A model generated the notes under the pieces. That model was not told the DNA's origin. It ran no database searches and worked only from the letters and a program-made list of their open reading frames with translations. DNA of 40,804 nt from a virus. Every line of letters starts with the position of its first letter. Positions within the stretch are counted from its first letter, which is position 1. Both the position numbers and the translations under genes were made by a program. Below are positions 1-37,253 of this stretch, one piece after another. The DNA is taken from positions 1-40,804 of IMG/VR virus record IMGVR_UViG_3300044633_000568; one strand, given 5' to 3'.

Positions 1-1614
1 TATAATGAAAACATAACTAGAAAATATAGACAGGCTGGTGTTACTACGGTAACTGCCGCTTGGATTTCTAAGAAATTACAAACCGCAAAGGAAAATGAAC
101 CAGAAAGGGTTCTTCTTATTGCAAACAAACGTGACACTGCGGTGGAAATGGCCAATAAAGTTAGAAATTTTATTGAGCAATGGCCTGAATGGATTAATGT
201 TGGGTTCTCACCCGATAAGAACTCAGAAAGTAGATTTAGATTAAACAATGGGTGTGAGGTTAAGGCGGTAGCAACATCTGCAGATGCCTTACGTGGTTAT
301 ACACCAACTATACTTGTATTTGATGAGGCGGCTTATATTGAAGCGGGTGAGGATTTTTGGGCGGCATCTATGGCGTCCCTATCAACGGGTGGTAAGATTA
401 TTCTTATCTCAACCCCAAATGGTTATGACCCTATCTATTACGGTGTTTATGACCAAGCATTACGTGGAATCAATGATTTCCATATAACAGATTTAAGGTG
501 GTTTAAAGACCCTCGTTATACCAAAGATTTACATTGGGTTAAGTGTCAAGACATTTGTCATTACATGTTGAATAGAGAACAATATAATGATGATGAAGTT
601 GTAATGAAGGATTTTAATCCAGAGAATTATAATGAATATATTGAACAAGGATATAAACCGTTCTCTTCTTGGTTTGAATCAATGTCTAAGAAATTTAAAT
701 ATGATAGACGTAAGATTGCTCAGGAATTGGAATGCGATTTCTTAGGTTCGGGTGATGGTGTTATTCCGGGTGATATTCAAGAGAACATTGCTAAGAATAT
801 GATACGTGTACCTAAAGAAAAATATATGCAGGGTACATTTTGGCATTGGAAGGAACCTGTTCAGGGACATCGTTACATTATGGGTGTAGATGTTAGTAGA
901 GGTGATAGTGAAGACTTCTCCTCAATTAATATTATCGACTTTGATGAAAGGGAACAGGTTGCAGAATACATTGGAAAAATACCTCCTGATGATTTGGCTG
1001 CAGTTGCATATAAATGGGGTGTTTTGTATGAGGCATATATTGTTATTGATATTACAGGGGGTATGGGTGTTGCAACGTCTAGGAAGTTACAAGAGATGCA
1101 ATATAAAAATCTATACATCGATGGGATAAACACTCAAAATATATGGGAGTGGAATAAAAAGGCCATGGATAAAATCCCCGGTATAAATTTTAACAATAAA
1201 AGAACTCAAATAGTTGCTGCTTTCGAGGAACAATTAAGAAAGGGGTTTTTAGTTAGGTCAAGTAGGTTATTAAATGAACTTAATACGTTTGTTTATATAA
1301 ATGGTAGACCCGACCACATGAAAGGTGCTCACGATGATGCAATTATGAGTATGTCAATGGCGTTATATGCTGCCGATATGTGTTTCAATCAATTACAAAA
1401 GAACGAAAACGCAAATAAAGCAATGTTGGAGTCTTGGACGATGTCAGAAAGATCGTATGAACCCAATAAATCGTTTTATTCTTACGGTACTGCATTTGAC
1501 CAAATTGGTTCTATGGGGATTGATAATCAAAATTTATATCACCCAAATAATAATATGAATGTATCAAAGGACGCATATAGAGAACATATGTGGTTATTTG
1601 GTAAATCAAAATAA
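1..1614 (+). CDS. terL: Terminase large subunit (T4 gp17-like), 5' truncated
   Basis: Packaging motor ATPase and headful nuclease that drives DNA into the prohead through the portal. The reading frame is open from base 1, so the true start lies outside the window; an internal GTG at 142 is not the start. The ATPase has a deviant Walker A, RQAGVTT (bases 28-48), in which the usual GK lysine is absent, as in many terminases that use an upstream basic residue. Walker B is VFDEA (Asp-Glu at 322-327). The RNase H-like nuclease shows GVDVSRGDSEDF (first Asp at 889-891), VIDITGG, and the late acidic motif GAHDDAIMS near 1330. It is followed by the portal gene, as expected for a T4-type head module. 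The small terminase is not in the window. Confidence 0.95.
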   Translation, partial: YNENITRKYRQAGVTTVTAAWISKKLQTAKENEPERVLLIANKRDTAVEMANKVRNFIEQWPEWINVGFSPDKNSESRFRLNNGCEVKAVATSADALRGYTPTILVFDEAAYIEAGEDFWAASMASLSTGGKIILISTPNGYDPIYYGVYDQALRGINDFHITDLRWFKDPRYTKDLHWVKCQDICHYMLNREQYNDDEVVMKDFNPENYNEYIEQGYKPFSSWFESMSKKFKYDRRKIAQELECDFLGSGDGVIPGDIQENIAKNMIRVPKEKYMQGTFWHWKEPVQGHRYIMGVDVSRGDSEDFSSINIIDFDEREQVAEYIGKIPPDDLAAVAYKWGVLYEAYIVIDITGGMGVATSRKLQEMQYKNLYIDGINTQNIWEWNKKAMDKIPGINFNNKRTQIVAAFEEQLRKGFLVRSSRLLNELNTFVYINGRPDHMKGAHDDAIMSMSMALYAADMCFNQLQKNENANKAMLESWTMSERSYEPNKSFYSYGTAFDQIGSMGIDNQNLYHPNNNMNVSKDAYREHMWLFGKSK

Positions 1615-1667: not shown

Positions 1668-3482
1668 ATGGCAGAACAGAATCTTACCGTCTTTCAGAGA
1701 TTAACAAAGGTGTTTGGTTACCCAAATCAAGCAAAACAAAAAAATGTTGCACCACCTTCGTTTAATTTCAACAAAGATGAAATATTAAAAACGGATAGTA
1801 GAGAAGAATATGAAAAGGCAATGTTACAAGCTCAACAGAGTCAATACATTGCAGATAAGTGGACTAAATTAGACCAATCACTTTACAATCAATCTGTTTA
1901 TTACGAACCAAATAGGTTATCAGCATATTACGATTATGAATCTATGGAGTTTACTCCCGAAATATCTGCGGCGTTAGACATTTATGCTGAAGAATCAACA
2001 ACAATGTCTGAGAAAGGACAAATATTAACAATATTTTCAGATTCAGATAGAGTTAAAAATATATTAGATGATTTATTTAATAACAAATTAGATGTTAACA
2101 CTAACTTACAAATGTGGACAAGAGGTCTTTGTAAGTATGGTGACGATTTTGTTTATTTAAAAATAGACCCTGAGAAGGGAGTTGTTGGTTGTCAACAGTT
2201 ACCAAATATTGAAATTGAAAGAATTGAGGGTGCGGCATCTAAAACACCGAACTCATATACTGATATTAAAGTTCCAACAAGAGAGTTAAGATTTACTTGG
2301 AAGAATAAAGATTTAGAATTTCAAGCATGGGAGATTGCACACTTTAGATTATTAGGTGATGATAGAAAACTTCCTTATGGAACTTCTATGTTAGACAAGA
2401 TTAGAAGAATTTGGAAACAATTACTTCTTGCGGAAGATGCAATGTTAATTTACAGAACATCAAGAGCACCTGAAAGACGTGTATTCAAAGTATTCGTTGG
2501 TAACATGGATGATAAGGATATTGAACCTTATGTACAACGTGTTGCTAATAAATTTAAAAGAGACCAAGTTTCAGATCCACGTAATGGTAATGTAGATATG
2601 AGATATAATCAAATGGCGGTAGACCAAGATCCAGCACAAAGCAATCCAATTGAAACATTGCCGGGGGCTCAAAATTTAGGTGAAATTGCAGATATCGAAT
2701 ATATTCAAAAGAAGTTATTAGCGGCGTTACGTATTCCAAAGGCATTCTTAGGATTTGAAGAAGTTGTTGGTGAAGGTAAGAGTTTAGCATTAATGGATAT
2801 TCGTTTTGCGAGAACGATTAATAGAATTCAAAAATCTATTATTCAAGAATTAAATAAAATTGCATTAGTACATTTATATCTTTTAGGTTTAGAAGATGAG
2901 TTAGATAATTTTTCTTTATCGTTAACTAATCCTTCAGCACAATCTGATTTATTAAAAATAGAACAGTGGAAAGAAAAGATTACACTTTATAAAGACGCAA
3001 CATCTGACCAATCACAAGTCGGTATTTTACCAGTATCTCACACGTGGGCTAAAAAGAATATTCTTGGTATGAGTGACTCAGAGGTTATTTTAGATTTACA
3101 ACAACAAAGACTTGAAAGAGCAATGGGATTTGAATTGACAAATACACAAAACATAATTAAACGTTCTGGCGTATTTGACGACGTGGATTCTAAGTATGGT
3201 ATTTCTGAAGAAGAAAGACAAAAATTAGAAGCTGCAGGTGCAATGGGTGGTGATACTGCTGGTGCAGGAGCAATGGATATGGGTGGAGCACCCGCAACCC
3301 CTCCATCGGGAGGTGAGGGAGAAGCTCCATTGAGTGAATCTTTTACTAAATCTAAAAAATCAAAGATATTAAGTATGTTGGGAGAAGAAAAAGAAGGAAA
3401 AAATGTTTTATTTGATATGGAAAGAGCTCAACAGAATATTTATGAAATAGAAAATAAATTGAACGATATTATAAACGATTAA
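1668..3482 (+). CDS. 20: Portal vertex protein (T4 gp20-like)
   Basis: Dodecameric portal at the unique head vertex; it nucleates prohead assembly, docks the terminase and later joins the neck. At 604 residues it is longer than T4 gp20 (about 520). Family features visible are the N-terminal PNRLSAYYDYESM stretch, TPEISAALDIYAEE (about residues 97-110), LCKYGDDFVYLKI, and the helical VGEGKSLALMDIRFART segment (about residues 365-381). The C-terminal tail has a Gly/Ala/Met/Pro-rich linker (about 525-555) followed by a charged helix; this tail accounts for the extra length. The start ATG follows a TATTTATA box by three bases and no other Met lies nearby. The next gene begins two bases after the stop, so the two are probably cotranscribed. 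Confidence 0.95.
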   Translation: MAEQNLTVFQRLTKVFGYPNQAKQKNVAPPSFNFNKDEILKTDSREEYEKAMLQAQQSQYIADKWTKLDQSLYNQSVYYEPNRLSAYYDYESMEFTPEISAALDIYAEESTTMSEKGQILTIFSDSDRVKNILDDLFNNKLDVNTNLQMWTRGLCKYGDDFVYLKIDPEKGVVGCQQLPNIEIERIEGAASKTPNSYTDIKVPTRELRFTWKNKDLEFQAWEIAHFRLLGDDRKLPYGTSMLDKIRRIWKQLLLAEDAMLIYRTSRAPERRVFKVFVGNMDDKDIEPYVQRVANKFKRDQVSDPRNGNVDMRYNQMAVDQDPAQSNPIETLPGAQNLGEIADIEYIQKKLLAALRIPKAFLGFEEVVGEGKSLALMDIRFARTINRIQKSIIQELNKIALVHLYLLGLEDELDNFSLSLTNPSAQSDLLKIEQWKEKITLYKDATSDQSQVGILPVSHTWAKKNILGMSDSEVILDLQQQRLERAMGFELTNTQNIIKRSGVFDDVDSKYGISEEERQKLEAAGAMGGDTAGAGAMDMGGAPATPPSGGEGEAPLSESFTKSKKSKILSMLGEEKEGKNVLFDMERAQQNIYEIENKLNDIIND

Positions 3483-3484
3483 AA

Positions 3485-4231
3485 ATGAACAAATTCGGGG
3501 TTATAAAAACCAAAATGTTGACGAAATTAACTGAATCTTACGCTAAAGAGAATAAGAAAGAAGTTAAAGATTTATTAAACACAATCAAAGAAAACAAAGA
3601 CTTTAAAGAAATGTATTTGTTTTATGAAGAAATTGAAAACAAATACATTGAAGATAAAGAAACTGCGAAGTTATATGTTGAAGGATTAAATACATATTTT
3701 GGTCAACCAATAGGTAATTGGAGTAGTTTAAATATGTTTTGTGAATCTTTAAATACTAAGTTGGGTGAGATTGAAATCGAAACCAAAGAATTATACGAAT
3801 CTTTAGATATGTTATCAGAAAAAGATTCATTATCAAATATTGAAAAGAAAGTTATTGCAAAAAAGAAATTAGTAGAACATTTAACAACTAAAAAGGAAAT
3901 CAAAGAATCTAAAGATTCAACTATTGTTCCTAACGAAACATTACTACAAGCGGTATTAGCAAACAATTTTAACGTATTATATTCTAACACATTATCAGAA
4001 TCACAAAAAGAAGAATTAAAAAATATCTTATCAATTTCTTATGATGATTTAGTAACTAAAAGTAATGAATTACAAGAATCAATTATTAATCAGGTATCTA
4101 CACTTTTAAGTGAATCAAACGACTCTGATTTAACCACTAAACTAAATAAAGTAAAAGATGAAGTTAGTCAAATGACAACATCTAAGTACAACTACTACAG
4201 ATTAACAGAATTAAAAAATGGTCTTAACTAA
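3485..4231 (+). CDS. Conserved-position head-module protein, function unknown
   Basis: A 248-residue, Lys/Glu-rich, mostly helical protein with predicted coiled-coil character and no motif I recognise. It starts two bases after the portal stop with no Shine-Dalgarno sequence, so it is likely translated from the portal mRNA. In T4 the slot between portal (20) and protease (21) holds the small prohead core proteins gp67 and gp68; by position and helical, charged composition this could be a core or scaffold-associated protein, but no sequence similarity is evident to me. Its last codons and stop lie inside a perfect palindrome shared with the convergent bS21 gene, overlapping that gene by eight bases. 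Confidence 0.85.
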   Translation: MNKFGVIKTKMLTKLTESYAKENKKEVKDLLNTIKENKDFKEMYLFYEEIENKYIEDKETAKLYVEGLNTYFGQPIGNWSSLNMFCESLNTKLGEIEIETKELYESLDMLSEKDSLSNIEKKVIAKKKLVEHLTTKKEIKESKDSTIVPNETLLQAVLANNFNVLYSNTLSESQKEELKNILSISYDDLVTKSNELQESIINQVSTLLSESNDSDLTTKLNKVKDEVSQMTTSKYNYYRLTELKNGLN

Positions 4232-4242
4232 GACCATTTTTT
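4213..4242. terminator. Bidirectional terminator, perfect 14-bp inverted repeat
   Basis: The arms at 4213-4226 and 4229-4242 are exact reverse complements (AAAAAATGGTCTTA), separated by AC. The core GGTCTTA/TAAGACC is flanked by an A-run and a T-run, so it reads as a factor-independent terminator on both strands. The stop codon of the rightward gene (4229-4231) and the stop codon of the leftward bS21 gene (4224-4226) both lie inside it. Confidence 0.85.
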
Positions 4243-4415
4243 ATTTGTTGAACATACACAGCTTTTAAAACTTCTTTTCTTCTAGTAACTGAAGGTTTTT
4301 CAAATTGTTGTCTTTCCCTCAATTTTTGAATTTGCTTAGTTTTTTGAACCTTTTGTTTATAGGTTCTAAGTGCACTTTCAATACTTTTTTCTTTTGTTAA
4401 ATCGATAATAATCAT
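4224..4415 (-). CDS. rpsU: Ribosomal protein bS21, phage-encoded
   Basis: A 63-residue protein of normal bS21 length with the Bacteroidota-type pattern: N-terminal MIII, SIESALRTYKQK, LRERQQFEKPSVTRR and KAVYVQ. It is very Lys/Arg/Gln-rich, as expected for binding 16S rRNA near the mRNA exit and anti-Shine-Dalgarno region. It is the only leftward gene within the rightward head module and converges on the upstream gene. The start ATG (4413-4415) has no Shine-Dalgarno sequence; a possible host-type -7 element TATATTTG (minus strand, 4434-4441) lies upstream, but I see no matching -33 box. The likely role is replacing or supplementing host bS21 on ribosomes during infection. The family call is strong; the physiological role is inference. 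Confidence 0.92.
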   Translation of the reverse strand: MIIIDLTKEKSIESALRTYKQKVQKTKQIQKLRERQQFEKPSVTRRKEVLKAVYVQQIKNGLS

Positions 4416-4522
4416 AATATAATAAGTATACTACAAATATATAAAATTATTTTTGGTTTTGTAAGTTTTTTTTCTTATTTTTTAGATAACACCATAAAAT
4501 AATATATAATAATGAGAAATTA

Positions 4523-4948
4523 ATGAAAACAGGTAAGTATATCCCATTAGGGACTTACAACAATGTAAAAATCGGTTATGGTACCGTAGATTTTAAAAAT
4601 CTTAAAACCGTTTATTTGAAATTGAATGCATGGGTACAACCAGAAAATGATACTGAAGATTATAATCAAACCATTTCAAAGACAAGAAGAAAAATAAAAG
4701 AATCAATATACAATCTTAAAGATTCAAATTTTAAAGACCAATGTATTGTTGATTTAGATATAAGAACAAAAGGTATTAAGTTAGAAAAAAGGTCATTCAT
4801 GAACCTCGAAATAACTTTATATGTTGAGAAACAATTTGATGTTAAATCAAAAGAAATTAAAAATACAATTAAAAATTTATTGGTAGATGTTGTTAATGAC
4901 GGTTTAATTGATAAAAAACTGTTCAATTTTCACAAAAGCAAGAAATAA
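4523..4948 (+). CDS. Unknown protein between portal and protease genes
   Basis: A 141-residue basic protein with alternating hydrophobic residues suggesting beta structure in its first half (IPLGTYNNVKIGYG, VYLKLNAWVQ) and a Lys-rich C-terminus. I do not recognise the family. It lies downstream of the divergently oriented bS21 gene and upstream of the protease, on the strand of the head genes. No TATTTATA box or Shine-Dalgarno sequence precedes it. An ATG at 4512 is followed at once by an in-frame stop, so the start at 4523 is preferred. A head or prohead-core role is possible from position only. Confidence 0.75.
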   Translation: MKTGKYIPLGTYNNVKIGYGTVDFKNLKTVYLKLNAWVQPENDTEDYNQTISKTRRKIKESIYNLKDSNFKDQCIVDLDIRTKGIKLEKRSFMNLEITLYVEKQFDVKSKEIKNTIKNLLVDVVNDGLIDKKLFNFHKSKK

Positions 4949-4962
4949 CTTGGTTCTTGATG

Positions 4963-4970
4963 TATTTATA
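4963..4970 (+). promoter_or_regulatory. Late-promoter-like octamer TATTTATA
   Basis: Exact octamer 16 bases before the prohead protease ATG, in sense orientation. Confidence 0.55.
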
Positions 4971-4986
4971 GTAATAAAATCTATAA

Positions 4987-5670
4987 ATGAAGATATTAGG
5001 ACCAAAAGAGACGGGGCACGGAATTTTAATAGAGTACGATGCTGGTCACGTTTCACCAGAGGATAACAAACAAATTATTAAAGAGGCGAAGGATATGGAC
5101 TTTTCACAAGACCTTATCCTTTATGCCGTTTTGCAAAAATACGACACTGCAAATAAGAATGGAAGGATTTATCCTGAGATGTTACTTAAGAGAGAAAACG
5201 AGAAATATCAATCACTTATCAAAAAGGGTGGAGCACTTAATGAATTAAACCATCCCTCATCTTCACTTATCGACTTAGATAGAGTATCCCATTCAATTCT
5301 TGAAACATGGTGGGACGGTAAAATCCTAATGGGTAAAATTAAATTATTCACTTCTCCAGGTTGGAGAAAGATGGGTATTGTATCTACTAGAGGAGACCAA
5401 GCTGCAATGTTAATTATGAACGGAGCAACTTTAGGTATATCTTCTCGTGGTGTTGGTTCACTTAAAAATGTAAAAGGACAAAATATTGTTCAGGAGGACT
5501 TCGAGTTAGTGTGTTTTGATTTAGTATCATCACCATCAACTCCAGGTGCGTATGTTTTTGCGGACCAATCTGAAAGAGACCAATATCAAGAGTCTGAAGA
5601 GAAAAAACCCCAAGTTGAGGATAGAATGAAAAAATTAATGGGAAATTTAGATACTTTTTTATCTAAATAA
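4987..5670 (+). CDS. 21: Prohead core protease (T4 gp21-like)
   Basis: Serine protease that degrades the scaffold and trims capsid proteins during prohead maturation. At 227 residues it is close to T4 gp21 length. The catalytic signature of the family is visible: NELNHP with His89, and LGISSRG with Ser152/Ser153, separated by about 63 residues as in gp21-type enzymes. The region between includes LMGKIKLFTSPGWR, and a conserved VCFDLVSSPSTPGAY follows. The C-terminus ends in a short charged helix, possibly a self-cleaved tail. It is flanked by scaffold and capsid genes in the canonical 20-21-22-23 order. Its own TATTTATA box is 16 bases upstream. Confidence 0.93.
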   Translation: MKILGPKETGHGILIEYDAGHVSPEDNKQIIKEAKDMDFSQDLILYAVLQKYDTANKNGRIYPEMLLKRENEKYQSLIKKGGALNELNHPSSSLIDLDRVSHSILETWWDGKILMGKIKLFTSPGWRKMGIVSTRGDQAAMLIMNGATLGISSRGVGSLKNVKGQNIVQEDFELVCFDLVSSPSTPGAYVFADQSERDQYQESEEKKPQVEDRMKKLMGNLDTFLSK

Positions 5671-5724
5671 TAAATTTTATAGGGGTAGTTATATCGAAAA
5701 AGAGAATTTTTCATAAAAACGTAC

Positions 5725-5732
5725 TATTTATA
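5725..5732 (+). promoter_or_regulatory. Late-promoter-like octamer TATTTATA
   Basis: Exact octamer 23 bases before the scaffold ATG. It probably serves scaffold and capsid genes together, since the capsid gene has no box of its own. Confidence 0.55.
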
Positions 5733-5755
5733 AGATAATAAAACAAAATTTCACA

Positions 5756-6931
5756 ATGACTGAAAAATCAATTTTAGAACAAGCGTTACTTCAAGTACAA
5801 ACACTTGAAGAAGCCGTAAAGCAAAATGCAAAGGGTATACTTGCTTCAACTATGAAACAAGAACTGAATGACTTGCTTAAAGAATCATTGGAAGAAGAGG
5901 AAGAAACTGAAAACCCTATGATTGCCGCTGAGCAACCTGAGGACGAAGTTAATCCTGACGAAGAGGCAGATGATATGTCAGACGATGAAGCAACAGCAGA
6001 TGATGCTGAAGCTGATGATGCTGAAAATGACGCAACAGACCTCGATAACGAAGATCCTATGAAAGGTATCGACTCATTAGACTCAGAAATGGGTGATGAT
6101 GAATTACCTACAGATTCAGAATCAGAAGACGAAGAAGCATCTATGGATGATTTTTCTGCAGATGATGAAGATGTAATGGACATGACAGGTGCTTCAGATG
6201 ATGAAGTACTAAAAGTTTTTAAGGCTATGAAACCAGAAGATGGTATTGTAGTTAAAAAAGACGGTAACAATGTCGAAATGTCTACAGGTGATGACGACTA
6301 TATTATCAAACTTGATGGTGATGATGAATCAGAAATGGAAGCTCCAGCAATGGAACCTGAAATGGACGAAGAAATTATGTACGAAATTGAGTTAGATGAA
6401 GAAGACGAAGATTCTGAAGAAATTGAGGTTTCTGAAGAGGAAGAAGAATCTAAAGAAGGAGAGTTTGGCGAAGCTGCAAGAACATATGGAGCTGACGTTA
6501 GAGCACCTCAGGGTAAAAAATACAAAGCTGGTCGTCACGAAATGAATGAAGAAGTTGAAAACTTAAAAAAGCAAAATTCTGAGTATAAGAAGGCGTTAAT
6601 CCTTTTTAAAGAAAAACTTAATGAAGTTGCTGTTTTCAATGCGAACTTAGCTTATGCCACTCGTTTATTCACAGAACATTCTACAACAAAACAGGAGAAA
6701 TTGAATATATTAAAGAGATTTGATTCAGTTTCTACTATGAATGAGGCTAAAAATCTATTCAATACAATAAAAACTGAATTAGGTACAAAAATAACAGTTA
6801 CCGAATCAGTAGTTGAAAAAATCTCAAACACTCCATCAACATCAACATCTCAAGAAGTATTATCAGAAGCTAAAGCATATGAGAATCCACAATTCAAGAG
6901 AATGAAGGATTTGATGAGTAAAATAAAATAA
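5756..6931 (+). CDS. 22: Prohead core scaffolding protein (T4 gp22-like)
   Basis: Internal scaffold around which the capsid assembles, later digested by the protease. The 391 residues fall into an N-terminal helical segment (1-50), a strikingly acidic low-complexity region rich in Asp/Glu/Ser/Met (about 50-240), and a C-terminal helical/coiled-coil region (about 260-390) containing NEEVENLKKQNSEYKKAL and FNANLAYATRLF, typical of gp22-type proteins. It is longer than T4 gp22 (about 270), mostly because of the acidic part. Several (L/I)-x-E sequences such as VLSE could be protease sites. The position between protease and capsid genes agrees. The capsid gene follows after 34 bases. Confidence 0.88.
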   Translation: MTEKSILEQALLQVQTLEEAVKQNAKGILASTMKQELNDLLKESLEEEEETENPMIAAEQPEDEVNPDEEADDMSDDEATADDAEADDAENDATDLDNEDPMKGIDSLDSEMGDDELPTDSESEDEEASMDDFSADDEDVMDMTGASDDEVLKVFKAMKPEDGIVVKKDGNNVEMSTGDDDYIIKLDGDDESEMEAPAMEPEMDEEIMYEIELDEEDEDSEEIEVSEEEEESKEGEFGEAARTYGADVRAPQGKKYKAGRHEMNEEVENLKKQNSEYKKALILFKEKLNEVAVFNANLAYATRLFTEHSTTKQEKLNILKRFDSVSTMNEAKNLFNTIKTELGTKITVTESVVEKISNTPSTSTSQEVLSEAKAYENPQFKRMKDLMSKIK

Positions 6932-6965
6932 TAAATAAAAAAACCAAAAAACAAATATTCAAAAA

Positions 6966-8720
6966 ATGGGAGCATTATTAGAATCAGGTATGGTAGGTAA
7001 CATCGGTCTTAAGCACCTTCGTGTTATCAAAGAAGATACCATCAAAAAATGGGATGACTTAGGCTTTTTAGAAGGTCTTAACGGTCACCAAAAAGATAAC
7101 ATCGCGCAATTGTATGAAAACCAAGCGTCTTACTTAATCAATGAAGCAGCAACAGCTGATGCATCTGGTTCTTTCGAGACTGTAGTTTTCCCAATTATCC
7201 GTCGTGTATTCTCTAAATTATTAGCAAACGACATCGTTTCAGTACAAGCAATGAACTTACCAATTGGTAAATTGTTCTTCTTCGTACCTAAAATTCAAGA
7301 AAGAAACGCAAGTAACGGTCACTATTCTCCTTACGGTATCCCAGGTGGTGCTGGTGGATCAAGTGCTTCTACTGGTTATACAGGTATTAACTTGTACGAT
7401 CGTTTCTACGAGAACAGTGATGCAAACGATCAAGGTTTGTTTGATTACTCTAAAGGAGAGTTTTCAACAGTTTCTTTAACAGGTACATCACTTCACGAAT
7501 TTGCTGCAGGTGAAGCAGGTAACGGAGTAACTTACACTTCAGGTTCAACTGTAACTTCATTAGGTTCAGTAATCTTGAAATTAACTGGTTTCTCTAAACC
7601 AGGTCAAGGTAAATTAGCAGGTCCAGACGGTAACGAAATGGATACTGAAGAATTTTTAGCTTCATTATCTTTAACATGTCCTCGTATTGCTGGTTTAAGT
7701 GGTAGAACATCATTACCATTTAACGTAGTAACTCAGAAATATGGTAAAGGTATTGTAGAATACGGTTCAAGAACCGCAGGTGCAAATGGTCTTAAATTTA
7801 ATGACATTTGTGATGAAGATGGTGCAATCTACTTAAACGTTGATTTACAATCTTATTCATCTACTGCAGGTTATTCTAATTTTTCTGTAACAGGTACAAC
7901 ATCTTTAGATGGTACTGACTTTACAGCGGAATACCGTCGTTATGCAACTTTAGAATTTGAAGATGCAATCGGTGAAGTTTCTTTTGATTTAGAATCAGTA
8001 ACAGTTTCTGTAACTGAAAGAAAATTAAGAGCTAGCTGGTCTCCTGAATTGGCTCAAGACGTTAGTGCATTCCACAACATCGATGCTGAGGCAGAATTGA
8101 CAGCTTTATTATCAGAGCAAATCGCTGCTGAAGTTGACCGTGAAATCTTACGTGACTTACGTAAAGGTGCAGCATGGAAAGCTAAGTGGGATTATAACGA
8201 ATGGAAATACGGTGGAACTGGTGGAGCAACTCTACAAGGTTACACACAGAAAGATTGGAACCAAACTTTAGTAACTAAAGTTAACCAAATTTCTGCTCAA
8301 ATCCACAAGACTACATTAAGAGGTGGTGCTAACTGGATTGTTGTTTCTTCAGAAGTTTCTGCAGTATTCGATGATTTAGAGTATTTCCACGTATCTAATG
8401 CAGCTCCTGAGCAAGATTCATACAACATGGGTATCGAGAAAATCGGTTCTCTTGCTGGAAGATATCAAGTATATCGTGACCCTTACTTCCCAGCTGGAAA
8501 AATCTTGATTGGACATAAAGGAAAATCATTATTGGACGCAGGATATGTATACGCACCATACGTGCCATTACAATTAACTCCAACAATGTACAATCCATTC
8601 AACATGACACCTATCAAAGGTATCATGACACGTTACGCAAAGAAAATGGTGAACAACCGTTACTTCGGTGTAATCGATGTACAAGGTATTGTAACATTCA
8701 ATATGGATACATTAAGATAA
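6966..8720 (+). CDS. 23: Major capsid protein (T4 gp23-like)
   Basis: HK97-fold major head protein of 584 residues, compared with 521 in T4. The N-terminal 60 residues form the expected propeptide ending in LINE, so gp21-type cleavage between Glu60 and Ala61 is predicted, analogous to T4 gp23. Family features include VVFPIIRRVFSKLLAND after the cleavage site, RKLRASWSPELAQDVSAFHN with the EAELTALLSEQIAAEVDREIL helix near residues 355-400, and the C-terminal KMVNNRYFGVIDV. A Gly/Ser/Thr-rich middle stretch (about 165-300) may be an insertion domain. Codon choice is more C-ending than in neighbours (AAC, TTC, CGT), as is usual for the most highly expressed gene. A strong terminator follows. Confidence 0.97.
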   Translation: MGALLESGMVGNIGLKHLRVIKEDTIKKWDDLGFLEGLNGHQKDNIAQLYENQASYLINEAATADASGSFETVVFPIIRRVFSKLLANDIVSVQAMNLPIGKLFFFVPKIQERNASNGHYSPYGIPGGAGGSSASTGYTGINLYDRFYENSDANDQGLFDYSKGEFSTVSLTGTSLHEFAAGEAGNGVTYTSGSTVTSLGSVILKLTGFSKPGQGKLAGPDGNEMDTEEFLASLSLTCPRIAGLSGRTSLPFNVVTQKYGKGIVEYGSRTAGANGLKFNDICDEDGAIYLNVDLQSYSSTAGYSNFSVTGTTSLDGTDFTAEYRRYATLEFEDAIGEVSFDLESVTVSVTERKLRASWSPELAQDVSAFHNIDAEAELTALLSEQIAAEVDREILRDLRKGAAWKAKWDYNEWKYGGTGGATLQGYTQKDWNQTLVTKVNQISAQIHKTTLRGGANWIVVSSEVSAVFDDLEYFHVSNAAPEQDSYNMGIEKIGSLAGRYQVYRDPYFPAGKILIGHKGKSLLDAGYVYAPYVPLQLTPTMYNPFNMTPIKGIMTRYAKKMVNNRYFGVIDVQGIVTFNMDTLR

Positions 8721-8739
8721 TCTTAGGATTTATCATATT

Positions 8740-8769
8740 AAAAGACCCTCGAGAAATCGGGGGTTTTTT
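8740..8769 (+). terminator. Factor-independent terminator after the capsid gene
   Basis: The stem GACCCTCGA / TCGGGGGTT contains wobble pairs and is closed by a GAAA tetraloop (8753-8756). It is preceded by A-rich sequence and followed by TTTTTT. Confidence 0.85.
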
Positions 8770-8782
8770 ATTTAAACTGAAA

Positions 8783-8790
8783 TATTTATA
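8783..8790 (+). promoter_or_regulatory. Late-promoter-like octamer TATTTATA
   Basis: Exact octamer between the capsid terminator and the next ATG (18 bases away), giving the downstream small gene its own unit. Confidence 0.55.
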
Positions 8791-8808
8791 TCTATAAACA
8801 ATTAAAAA

Positions 8809-9129
8809 ATGAACAAAAAACTTGCAAAATTACAAAACATAATTGAGGCTAACCAAAGATTAAACAAAACATTATTAAATGAACAACACCAACCTAAAAA
8901 TTTTAGTGTGGGTCAAGTAGTTAATACTAAGAGAGATGTTGATGGCCAAATGTATACAATAAAAATTACAGCGGCAGAACCAAATTTTATGGTTGGTACT
9001 ATAACAGGTCCAGGAACATACGGTGGGGCATCGTTAAAAAATGGACAATCGGGTCTTGAATTATATTCAGACGCTCCCGGTGTACTAAGTGGTAATTCAC
9101 AATTAGGTAAATTTACAGTAGTAAGATAA
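8809..9129 (+). CDS. Small protein in its own late unit after the capsid gene
   Basis: A 106-residue protein with an N-terminal helix (residues 1-26, Lys/Asn/Leu-rich) followed by a compact Gly-rich beta region (FSVGQVVNTKRDVDGQMYTI, VGTITGPGTYGG). I do not recognise the family. It is isolated as a single-gene unit: terminator, TATTTATA box, gene, terminator. That arrangement next to the capsid gene would suit an abundant minor head or decoration protein, but this is inference from position alone. Confidence 0.8.
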   Translation: MNKKLAKLQNIIEANQRLNKTLLNEQHQPKNFSVGQVVNTKRDVDGQMYTIKITAAEPNFMVGTITGPGTYGGASLKNGQSGLELYSDAPGVLSGNSQLGKFTVVR

Positions 9130-9132
9130 TTT

Positions 9133-9158
9133 AAACCCCCAATTATGGGGGTTTTTTA
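9133..9158 (+). terminator. Factor-independent terminator
   Basis: Stem AAACCCCC (9133-9140) / GGGGGTTT (9147-9154), loop AATTAT, T-run behind it. Confidence 0.85.
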
Positions 9159-9160
9159 TT

Positions 9161-9192
9161 TTTGGCATATTCCAGAATATTATTTATATTTG
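9161..9192 (+). promoter_or_regulatory. Host-type (Bacteroidota sigma-A) promoter
   Basis: TTTG (9161-9164), a 20-base spacer, then TATATTTG (9185-9192). This matches the Bacteroidota consensus TTTG-N19-21-TAnnTTTG exactly. It lies directly behind a terminator and four bases before an ATG, and suggests early transcription by host polymerase. A TATTTATA octamer (9181-9188) overlaps the -7 element, so the unit could also be read late. Confidence 0.65.
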
Positions 9193-9196
9193 CATT

Positions 9197-9493
9197 ATGG
9201 AATACGAGAATCTTAGATTAGATGTTCTTATTAAACTCATTGATGAAAGGGGTATTTCTTGTAAAAGCAAGAAGGATGAGATTATAAAATACCTTAAATT
9301 GGACGATGAGGATAAATATATCAGAGAAACCACTTATATGAAGGATGGTAATGGATATGCTGTGGGTATTGATATTAAAAATAGAGACCATTTACTACAA
9401 ATGAGTAAATTAATCGAGAAAAAAGAAGGGAAACATTTAAATAGGTACGAGGATAATCGTATTATGTTTTGGTCACCACAAAAATTAATATAA
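9197..9493 (+). CDS. SAP-like domain small protein
   Basis: A 98-residue protein whose first 35 residues (LRLDVLIKLIDERGISCKSK then KDEIIKYL) fit the SAP helix-extension-helix pattern found in DNA-binding proteins. The rest, with YAVGIDIKNRDHLLQMSKLI, is unassigned. The start is fixed by the domain beginning at residue 5 and by a host-type promoter four bases upstream, which predicts a leaderless or nearly leaderless mRNA. Its stop overlaps the start of the deaminase gene (TAATG at 9491-9495), so the two are translationally coupled. Early expression is likely; a DNA-binding role is inferred. Confidence 0.8.
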   Translation: MEYENLRLDVLIKLIDERGISCKSKKDEIIKYLKLDDEDKYIRETTYMKDGNGYAVGIDIKNRDHLLQMSKLIEKKEGKHLNRYEDNRIMFWSPQKLI

Positions 9494-9933
9494 TGAATTG
9501 GACGGAATATTTTTTAGAAATTGCAGAGGTTGTAAAACTTAAATCTAAGGACCAATCTACACAGATAGGTGCTGTTGTCGTTGGGGAGGGTAGAAACGTC
9601 CTTTCTACGGGTTATAATTCCTTTCCAAGGGGTTTAGACGATTCTAAACCTGAACGTCAGGAAAGACCCGAGAAATACTTCTGGATGGAACATGCGGAAC
9701 GTAATGCGATTTATAATGCTGCGTTAGAGGGTGTGTCCCTTAAAAACTCAACAATCTATTTAACATCGGGATTACCTTGTATGGATTGTGCTAGAGGAAT
9801 TGTTAATTCTGGTATAAAGACGGTATATTGTAAGGAAGTCTGCACTACTAAAAATAAAGAAAAGTGGGATGAATCCCAAAGTAAGGCCAAACAACTTTTA
9901 AATGAGTGTGGGGTTAATATAATTTATTATTAA
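9493..9933 (+). CDS. cd: Deoxycytidylate (dCMP) deaminase
   Basis: Converts dCMP to dUMP for dTTP synthesis in the cytoplasm. The zinc site is clear: HAE at residues 67-69 and PCMDC at 95-99, with the N-terminal CDA-fold opening KSKDQSTQIGAVVV. A longer frame starting at TTG 9469 exists, but the ATG at 9493 overlaps the upstream stop and begins right at the conserved MNWTEYF, giving 146 residues, normal for the family. With the dUTPase gene (20915-21514) it forms a phage dUMP supply. It ends base-to-base with the convergent gene; I see no terminator between them. Confidence 0.93.
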   Translation: MNWTEYFLEIAEVVKLKSKDQSTQIGAVVVGEGRNVLSTGYNSFPRGLDDSKPERQERPEKYFWMEHAERNAIYNAALEGVSLKNSTIYLTSGLPCMDCARGIVNSGIKTVYCKEVCTTKNKEKWDESQSKAKQLLNECGVNIIYY

Positions 9934-16698: not shown

Positions 16699-17397
16699 TT
16701 ATTCTAAAAATCCACCCAAAATCCCGTCGTACATCTTTTTGAATTTTTTTAGAGATATTCTAATTTCTTTGGTGGAAAGGGATGTCATTTCTCGTAATGA
16801 TAATAAAATTAGGTTTTTGTTAAATTTATTACCGTCACCAACTTGGAATATTCTATCAAAATTATTAAAAATTTCAAGTAACGCATAACCTAATTTCTGT
16901 TCGTTATCTGTTAGGTCTTCTTTTTCCATAAACTCCTCTAAGGATATTGTTAGTTTAATAATAACATCCCGATAGTCTACGATATACTCATCAATAACAT
17001 AGGATAAATCCGTTCTATCCTCAATGTCAGATGATATATCATCATAAGAAACTTGTCTATTCTGTTCTTTTGTGTCTTTCTGTATTGCCCCCATTAGGTA
17101 GTTTTTACAGATTGTCCCAAAATAGGAGTATGCTTTATGATTTTTTGTGTGATCAAATTTGTGAATTTTAGTAATTAAAAACGACATTGTATCGTTATGA
17201 ATTTCCTCAAATTCTAAATCTTTTCTGTAAAGTTTATAACGTCGAATAATTGATTCGACCATTATAATTAGGGGTTCTCGTAAATATTCGTTGAATATCT
17301 TGTTTTTTTCTGCATCGTCACTACTTTCAAGGTAACTGACTACCGCCTTCTCTTGATCCTCCCCAAAATAAATTTTTTGGGTACGTTTTCTCGGCAT
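16699..17397 (-). CDS. 55: Late transcription sigma factor (T4 gp55-like)
   Basis: Directs host RNA polymerase to phage late promoters. The core of this 232-residue protein matches the sigma region 2 of gp55: a helix around EPLIIMVESIIRRYKLYRKD, then KIHKFDHTKNHKAYSYFGTI with CKNYLMGAIQKDTKEQNRQV (about residues 78-116), equivalent to T4 'NFDETKY..PHAYI'. Unlike T4 gp55 (185 residues) it has a C-terminal extension with an HTH-like stretch LREMTSLSTKEIRISLKKF, ending in hydrophobic-acidic GILGGFLE, which might serve as a sliding-clamp contact. It overlaps the glycosyltransferase gene upstream by one base. The TATTTATA boxes in this window are its likely targets. Confidence 0.85.
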   Translation of the reverse strand: MPRKRTQKIYFGEDQEKAVVSYLESSDDAEKNKIFNEYLREPLIIMVESIIRRYKLYRKDLEFEEIHNDTMSFLITKIHKFDHTKNHKAYSYFGTICKNYLMGAIQKDTKEQNRQVSYDDISSDIEDRTDLSYVIDEYIVDYRDVIIKLTISLEEFMEKEDLTDNEQKLGYALLEIFNNFDRIFQVGDGNKFNKNLILLSLREMTSLSTKEIRISLKKFKKMYDGILGGFLE

Positions 17398-35996: not shown

Positions 35997-37253
35997 ATGG
36001 GAATACCTAAAAGAAAAAACAACATTGATGTTTATGGTGGTGCGAAAGAATCGTTCCAAGGTGAACGAGTTATGGAGAGAAGACAGGAATTATTGGATAG
36101 GATTACCAAGTCAGATTCCTATTTACCTGATTCTATACTTCATGATGATTTGGATGGTGGAATGTTAGATTTTATAAAAACAAATTTTGTTGTTGTATCT
36201 GATGGGAATCAAATCCCAATCATACCAAAAATACTTACAATACAAAGATGGGGTGAATTTGCAAACAATTGGGAGTTTTCTGATGACGATGGTAATGTTA
36301 AAGTACCATTTATTGCAATTATTAGAAAACCTGACGTTCAGCCAGGTACGAATCCTGTAACACAAAGAACAATACCTGATAGAAGAACATTCCATTATGC
36401 ATCTGTCCCAACATGGAACGGAACACAAATTGGTGCCGACATATATAAAATGCCACAACCAGTTGCTGTGGATATAACTTTTGAGGTTACAATAGTGTGT
36501 CATAAATTTAGGGATTTAAATAAATTTAATAAAATTGTTTTACAAAAGTTCTCTTCAAGACAGGCTTACACATCTGTAAAAGGACATTACATACCAATAG
36601 TTTTAGAGGGTATTGAAGATAATAGTCCTATAGATACAGTTGATGGTCGTAGATTTTATATTCAAAATTATAAATTTGTAATGTTGGGTATTTTAATAGA
36701 TAGTGAGGAATTTGAGGTTAAGCCGGCAATTAGTAGATTTTTTCTATTAAATGAATTTATAAATCAAAAACCAGGCAGTAAAAAATTTATTAATAAGTTA
36801 ATTGATGTAACTGTGGCCACTTTTCCTGCTGATGGAATTCAAACACAATTTAGTGTTGGTGAAAGTATAGGAACGTTATTCAACGCATCGGTAAACGGTC
36901 TTGTACAAGAGAGGGATACGGATTATTTTCACGTCGCATACACATCAAAAATTACATTTTCTGAACCACCACCTGAAGGTAGTTCGATTGCCATAACATA
37001 TTATAAGGGTAGAAATAGTGTAATTATCGACACTTATGGTTCCTTATTACAAGTTACAACGGAATATTTTACATATAATGGATCAACATTAGAATTTACA
37101 TTACATAACTCCATCAATAGTATCATAACTGTAGACATAAACGGTCTATTACAAGAGGAAGGTTCAGGTTTTGATATAACTAGTGACCAAAGAATAACGT
37201 TGAGTGGTGCACCTGTAATTGGGTCAAGAATAGGGGTTACGTATCTTTATTAA
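35997..37253 (+). CDS. 15: Tail completion/sheath stabilising protein (gp15-like) with added C-terminal repeats
   Basis: Residues about 75-255 match the gp15 layout: KVPFIAIIRKPDV, RRTFHYASVPTW, PQPVAVDITFEVTIVCHKFR, DLNKFNKIVLQKF, then HYIPIVLEGIEDN and DGRRFYIQNYKFVMLGILI. This compares with T4 gp15's 'P.KMIYELSIFTRYEDDMFQ..EQILPYF'. gp15 forms a hexamer that terminates and stabilises the tail sheath and joins the neck. Residues about 265-418 add two copies of a 55-residue beta module (FSVGESIGTLFNASVNGLVQ and FTLHNSINSIITVDINGLLQ, each ending ITYYKG or VTYLY) not present in T4 gp15. An SD-like site precedes the start. It converges on the small RHH gene, overlapping it by four bases. Confidence 0.75.
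   Translation: MGIPKRKNNIDVYGGAKESFQGERVMERRQELLDRITKSDSYLPDSILHDDLDGGMLDFIKTNFVVVSDGNQIPIIPKILTIQRWGEFANNWEFSDDDGNVKVPFIAIIRKPDVQPGTNPVTQRTIPDRRTFHYASVPTWNGTQIGADIYKMPQPVAVDITFEVTIVCHKFRDLNKFNKIVLQKFSSRQAYTSVKGHYIPIVLEGIEDNSPIDTVDGRRFYIQNYKFVMLGILIDSEEFEVKPAISRFFLLNEFINQKPGSKKFINKLIDVTVATFPADGIQTQFSVGESIGTLFNASVNGLVQERDTDYFHVAYTSKITFSEPPPEGSSIAITYYKGRNSVIIDTYGSLLQVTTEYFTYNGSTLEFTLHNSINSIITVDINGLLQEEGSGFDITSDQRITLSGAPVIGSRIGVTYLY

Follow-up and report, generated by a model that had tools for sequence, protein, structure and literature searches.

A phage bS21 gene without a Shine-Dalgarno site and its likely terminator-written C-terminus

The window, that is, the whole 40,804-base stretch of a virus record analysed here, has a GC content of 29-33% in 4-kb blocks. 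From PHROG-based context its plus strand carries genes for the terminase large subunit (142..1614), portal protein (1668..3482), head maturation protease (4987..5670) and major head protein (6966..8720), with PolB, SNF2 helicase, tail sheath and PhoH genes farther along. A tRNA scan of the window found none, and an Rfam scan gave no match at the gathering score. Between the portal and protease genes lies a minus-strand gene of 63 codons (4224..4415) whose product matches Pfam PF01165 with 48 bits against a cut-off of 27 (profile positions 4-53 of 55), NCBIfam TIGR00030 with 42.9 bits against a cut-off of 28.95, and PHROG 21469; the closest solved structures are the bS21 chains 9i5v and 7jil, the latter from Flavobacterium johnsoniae according to PMC9723584. 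This open reading frame is a genuine bS21, and the family assignment is firm. The original prediction of a Bacteroidota-type bS21 is borne out both by these significant profile matches and by two motifs of the window protein, RERQQFEKPSVTRR and KAVYVQ. The phage probably infects a member of the Bacteroidota. The gene had also been described as antisense within the head module, which is correct insofar as the head genes on either side run on the other strand; actual overlap is confined to the final 8 nt of the convergent gene at 3485-4231.

The gene has many relatives. IMG/VR holds 189 candidate stretches that encode relatives, and the best 80 of these together with the window make up the 81 records of clade A. 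Each of eight larger records of this group that were searched contained one bS21 match. In a second phage set (L162-L182, comprising clade B together with L162; L183 and L184 were dropped from clade B) bS21 likewise lies on the opposite strand, beside relatives of the two genes that flank it in the window. The relatives in 189 stretches, and the overlap seen in nearly all of the 81 records, argue that the window bS21 is not there by chance. The layout is also that of the 47 freshwater Bacteroidetes jumbo phage genomes of Chen et al. (2022, PMC9723584), in which bS21 is reported on the reverse strand within the head module: the window gene is likewise reversed, lies between TerL/portal and protease/MCP, and encodes Tyr54. 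The complete genomes in that study have a GC content of 31.0-33.7%, against a block mean of about 32% in the window.

The convergent neighbour (3485..4231, plus strand) encodes a 248-residue, predicted all-helical protein of no recognised family that ends in LKNGLN, and the divergent neighbour (4523..4948, plus strand) encodes a 141-residue protein with an alpha/beta model. The models have a pLDDT of 79.7 and pTM of 0.56 for the former and a pLDDT of 87.9 and pTM of 0.82 for the latter. Assigning a function by fold was tried and given up: matches at E<0.001 were to uncharacterised phage proteins only, three for the 248-residue protein and one, a Myoviridae protein, for the 141-residue protein, whose model also found nothing at E<0.001 in the PDB. 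PHROG scans of both neighbour families gave weak, scattered matches only. By position and synteny the neighbours might be T4-like prohead core genes, and one of the two is presumably the bS21_CN of Chen et al. In the convergent protein G246 and L247 are kept in all 29 aligned members from both phage sets.

Two features of the bS21 protein itself matter for what follows, namely Tyr54 and the linker (VQKTKQIQ in the window). Position 54, by F. johnsoniae numbering, holds the aromatic residue that occludes the anti-Shine-Dalgarno sequence (ASD); Chen et al. report an aromatic residue there, Tyr in 54 of 61 phage proteins. Tyr54 is kept in the window protein, in all 32 distinct clade A proteins and in 7/7 distinct clade B proteins (L068, whose 5' end is cut, was left out of residue counts and trees). 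The phage protein shares this residue with F. johnsoniae bS21, in whose ribosomes the ASD is hidden in a platform pocket (PMC9976891), and since it is kept throughout clade A the hiding is expected to be kept as well. For the same reason no support was found for the proposal that the phage copy retunes mRNA choice by leaving the ASD exposed. Residues 21, 23, 24, 27 and 28, on the other hand, are consistently unlike canonical bS21: residues 23-28 read VQKTKQ in clade A, VIKTKQ in clade B and F[DE][KR]TG-like in canonical proteins.

At its 3' end the gene runs into the convergent gene, with an overlap at the stop codons that measures 8 nt in 77 of the 81 records and 4 nt in two others (the convergent open reading frame was not obtained in the remaining 2/81). 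Spanning both stop codons is a near-perfect palindrome (4209..4246, both strands) with arms at 4209-4226 and 4229-4246 and a 14-bp stem at 4212-4243, which codes for KNGLS and stop on the bS21 strand and KNGLN and stop on the other. It forms a stem-loop with flanking A and T tracts that is stable, and has a terminator-like score, on both strands. All 26 distinct 3' regions among the 81 records form a hairpin, with energies of -12.6 to -17.2 kcal/mol for the bS21 strand and of -10.9 to -17.3 kcal/mol for the opposite strand. When they are aligned, 97.8% of cells are paired and three pairs have changed on both sides; sliding the partners by 1-3 columns leaves 37-62% paired and no pair changed on both sides. 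The covariation score, the paired cells and the cells changed on both sides were equalled in 0/500 shuffles, the number of pairs with both sides changed in 23/500, and the number of pair types in 174/500. The palindrome is thus likely a bidirectional intrinsic terminator that would serve both bS21 and the convergent gene. In L162 and clade B a gap separates the two genes and sequence-unrelated hairpins lie just past the bS21 stop; eight of nine distinct ones beat all 200 shuffles and the weakest was equalled by five, where the shuffles, like those for the 3'-region folding and the SD energies, kept single-base composition only. L162 itself (4001-4952) has an intermediate layout, with a gap of about 30 nt between bS21 and the convergent gene that holds the hairpin. 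Elsewhere in the window, a strong C/G-rich hairpin with a terminator-like score on both strands follows the gene at 8809-9129 (9133-9154).

This palindrome also bears on the protein sequence. All 33 distinct bS21 proteins of clade A, including one that is 5'-cut, end in [KR]NGL plus one residue, as KNGLN, KNGLS, RNGLS or RNGLD, and the convergent neighbour ends in KNGLN or KNGLD; the likeness arises since the palindrome is translated from either strand. The ending was found in 0/8 clade B proteins, which have ordinary C-termini, 0/50 Flavobacteriaceae copies and 0/66 proteins from the bacterial scan (80 of 550 loci), one protein being common to the last two sets. The Leu codon of NGL is CTT in 25 of the 26 distinct clade A 3' regions, and among Leu codons in 26 window genes CTT accounts for 15% and TTA for 65%. 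It appears that the ending came with the gene overlap, and terminator overlap explains it best. Because the palindrome writes the end of bS21, conserved residues there need not reflect ribosome binding; the terminator would be a sufficient cause for conservation of the last residues in clade A. That [KR]NGL is instead kept for ribosome binding, the palindrome being incidental or a protein-binding operator, has in its favour that deltaC mutants show the C-terminal region to be important in F. johnsoniae (PMC9976891) and that Chen et al. suggest that conserved phage C-termini may serve substitution into ribosomes (PMC9723584), but I regard it as very improbable given that clade B has different C-termini and separate hairpins, that the neighbour retains GL near its end in clades A and B alike, and that the stem shows CTT codon bias and paired changes. 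The overlap also warns against taking the conserved end of clade A bS21 as a ribosome contact.

Upstream of the gene lie two promoter-like elements. The first, TATATTTG (4434..4441, minus strand; 26 nt upstream of the start), resembles the Bacteroidota -7 box, whose consensus is TAnnTTTG. It occurs in 26/32 distinct clade A upstreams, with TATATTTA in its place in five of the other six, and in 0/7 from clade B. Upstream of the other 40 window genes TAnnTTTG boxes are at chance level (two seen, 1.3 in shuffles). A host-type promoter alone for bS21 was considered and rejected, as TATATTTG is absent from 6/32 clade A and 7/7 clade B upstreams. The second element, TATACTTAT (4422..4430, minus strand; 15 nt upstream), is a variant of the late-promoter-like motif TATTTAT. 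Of the 40 window genes, 17 have that motif in the 60 nt ahead of them, against a mean of 2.3 and a maximum of 7 in 200 shuffles that keep dinucleotides. On both strands it precedes start codons by 11-48 nt, and it is a candidate phage late promoter. Ahead of bS21 the form TATA[CT]TTAT is found in 30/32 distinct clade A upstreams and TATTTAT itself in 7/7 from clade B. A candidate reader of the motif is encoded at 16699..17397 (minus strand), where there is a weak match to a late sigma factor family (phrog_234, E 2.7e-4). A sigma-70 scan of 3400-9600 gave 26 hits against 27.9 in shuffles, which is chance. The late-type motif before bS21 fits the late transcription of phage bS21 reported by Chen et al. 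and goes beyond the content found in PMC9723584.

The original prediction also held that the phage gene has no Shine-Dalgarno (SD) site and so may escape the autoregulation of host rpsU. I paired the 25 nt upstream of each gene with a 13-nt ASD, deduced from its complement at rpsU, after dropping the two of 81 clade A records with fewer than 25 nt upstream. The 23 distinct clade A upstreams have a median of -1.8 and a best value of -5.4 kcal/mol, and the six distinct ones from clade B and L162 a best value of -1.5 kcal/mol, whereas 29/29 distinct upstreams of canonical Flavobacteriaceae rpsU pair at -15.5 to -21.6 kcal/mol. Nine further Flavobacterium and Capnocytophaga rpsU genes lie at -17.4 to -18.7 kcal/mol and 15/16 of the Algoriphagus type at -13 kcal/mol or below; among other Bacteroidota 10/35 are at -8 kcal/mol or below and none at -13. 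The missing SD is therefore confirmed, and no clade A bS21 has the extended SD, below -13 kcal/mol, by which an SD-autoregulated rpsU was recognised. SD absence is not special to bS21, as all but one of the other window genes and the accessory chromosomal copies described below also lack one. Among the 40 other window genes one reaches -8.7 kcal/mol and the remainder are at -4.3 or weaker. This gene (35997-37253), with AGAGGAG, is the sole one of 41 tested at -8 kcal/mol or below, in a phage whose presumed hosts ignore the SD, and it has a DUF4183 match under the cut-off of that family. In F. johnsoniae, ribosomes that lack bS21 or carry a mutant one translate rpsU better than bS21-replete ribosomes (McNutt et al., 2023, PMC9976891), and the host gene, unlike the phage gene, has an extended SD. 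The lack of a strong SD means that the phage gene should stand outside this published autoregulation, and the predicted escape is supported to that extent: it is consistent with the sequence, the effect itself being presumptive.

Where did the phage gene come from? A donor clade was sought through the closest bacterial matches, and no close donor emerged, the best match being 63% over 54 residues (among 80 of 550 confirmed loci). That match, L084, is one of three bS21 genes in its genome, which led to the accessory chromosomal copies. A search of 199 Flavobacteriaceae genomes with L084 found matches in 192 of them, by hand count one in each of 117 and at least two in each of 75; seven have none. 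Fifty copies were examined (30 best loci and 20 further chosen ones) and divided, first by eye from sequence and upstream region, into 30 canonical and 20 accessory. The latter are SD-free, and most have a phage-like, KTKQ-like linker, residues 23-28 being mostly V/Y, R/K, K/N, T/V, K/Q and Q. A cold-shock protein gene ends 57-72 nt before the bS21 start, on the same strand, in six of the 20 (L084/L196, L197, L198, L199, L202 and L203); the other 14 have no cold-shock motif upstream, at least 576 nt being available in all 20 stretches. The genome of L084 (G011, Robertkochia sediminum) has one SD-led canonical bS21 and two SD-free ones of different kinds.

A protein-only tree of 114 rows groups 18 of the 20 SD-free copies (87/92), with L211 and L230 elsewhere, and these 18 pair with the ASD no better than -3.0 kcal/mol. 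In this tree, which has no outgroup, the phage and accessory proteins form separate groups that a 94/92 branch leaves together on one side; long branches meeting at the junction of clades A and B drew a warning from the program. In a tree rooted on Bacillota and E. coli (56 columns; clade A thinned to 12/30 rows, with roughly half of the canonical and other bacterial rows retained; L162, L194, L193, L195, L211 and L149 left out), both phage clades and 18 accessory rows come together (97/96) within the Flavobacteriaceae sequences, with L230 outside. The bootstrap was unsettled in both trees. An AU test did not reject a group of the phages with all 19 accessory rows (p 0.71). In quick trees from which L230 was also left out, the group survives removal of clade A alone (97) but not removal of columns 21-30, whether clade A is present or not. 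The grouping thus rests on ten linker columns, and since it dissolves without them the linker is shared by descent or by convergence; the accessory rows were moreover found with a query picked because it resembled the phage protein. Phage bS21 appears closer to the SD-free accessory copies than to canonical rpsU, and chiefly so in the linker. I found no extra bS21 copies described in Bacteroidota in the literature searched, mostly at abstract level, and the passage of PMC9976891 on groups with extra copies names no Bacteroidota. In Francisella, of another phylum, alternative bS21 homologs make ribosomes differ (PMC9578407), and no link to SD feedback was found in the available parts of that report.

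Taken together, these observations suggest an explanation to which I give slightly more credence than doubt: a phage bS21 that is made late and blind to feedback maintains ASD occlusion on ribosomes, and host rpsU remains off. The protein would probably be made late from its own reverse-strand transcription unit, bounded by the TATATTTG box and late motif upstream and the terminator-like palindrome downstream. With Tyr54 it would seat on the 30S platform and leave the ASD hidden. Its mRNA being SD-free, the filling of ribosomes with bS21 should not slow its synthesis, and the SD-led host rpsU would be poorly translated by such replete ribosomes, as in F. johnsoniae (PMC9976891). Phage bS21 may then displace host bS21 during ribosome turnover and hold rpsU off, and ribosomes would thereby be kept fit for SD-less phage mRNAs. 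Ribosome entry, displacement and repression are all read from sequence here. Telling against this explanation, E. coli ribosomes that took up the bS21 of the pelagiphage HTVC008M retained about 5% activity (Mizuno et al., 2019, PMC6375957); that protein is not from a Bacteroidota phage.

Chen et al. offer another explanation, selective translation, in which the changed N-terminal helix and linker steer ribosomes to phage mRNAs. The five residues that consistently differ from canonical bS21 agree with this, and in PMC9723584 N-terminal differences of this kind are located at the expected site of mRNA binding. However, chromosomal accessory copies have a closely similar linker, so that it is not phage-specific, and tests of SD pairing and seven promoter-like patterns upstream found no marker signal on phage mRNAs; I consider this explanation unlikely, if still worth keeping in view. 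Less likely again is simple supply, in which late infection outpaces host bS21 production and the phage copy merely tops it up: the conserved Tyr54 and core and the late-type promoter motif agree with it, but a near-host bS21 would then do, and clade A is far from the bacterial copies among the 80 loci kept from the scan.

Returning to the late-made, feedback-blind bS21, a broader and rather doubtful extension would be that Flavobacteriaceae and jumbo phages share a separate SD-free class of bS21, with a VxKTKQ-like linker where canonical proteins have F[DE][KR]TG, in some genomes directly behind a cold-shock gene and outside SD feedback; phages would fill ribosomes with it and the host's own feedback would shut rpsU off.

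Much of the setting is not new. The arrangement of phage bS21 and the idea of ribosome takeover were published between 2019 and 2022 (PMC6375957; PMC9723584, which proposes a ribosome-substitution model), and novelty is to that extent low. The parts of PMC9723584 available hold nothing on terminator overlap, promoter elements, the lack of an SD in phage genes or likeness to accessory copies, and the words "terminator", "promoter", "sigma" and "convergent" do not occur in its main text. As far as searches show, three points are new within the literature searched: a C-terminus probably written by a terminator, the contrast in SD strength and the likeness to accessory copies.

bS21 is the ribosomal protein gene most often reported in phages (PMC6375957, PMC9976891), and the phages that carry it are mostly aquatic and lytic (PMC6375957). 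Why they carry it is an open question in the field, and McNutt et al. speculate that rpsU feedback could act as a host counter-defence. Because host rpsU is under known SD feedback, the SD-free phage gene would allow a direct test, and the accessory chromosomal copies would provide a natural non-phage control.
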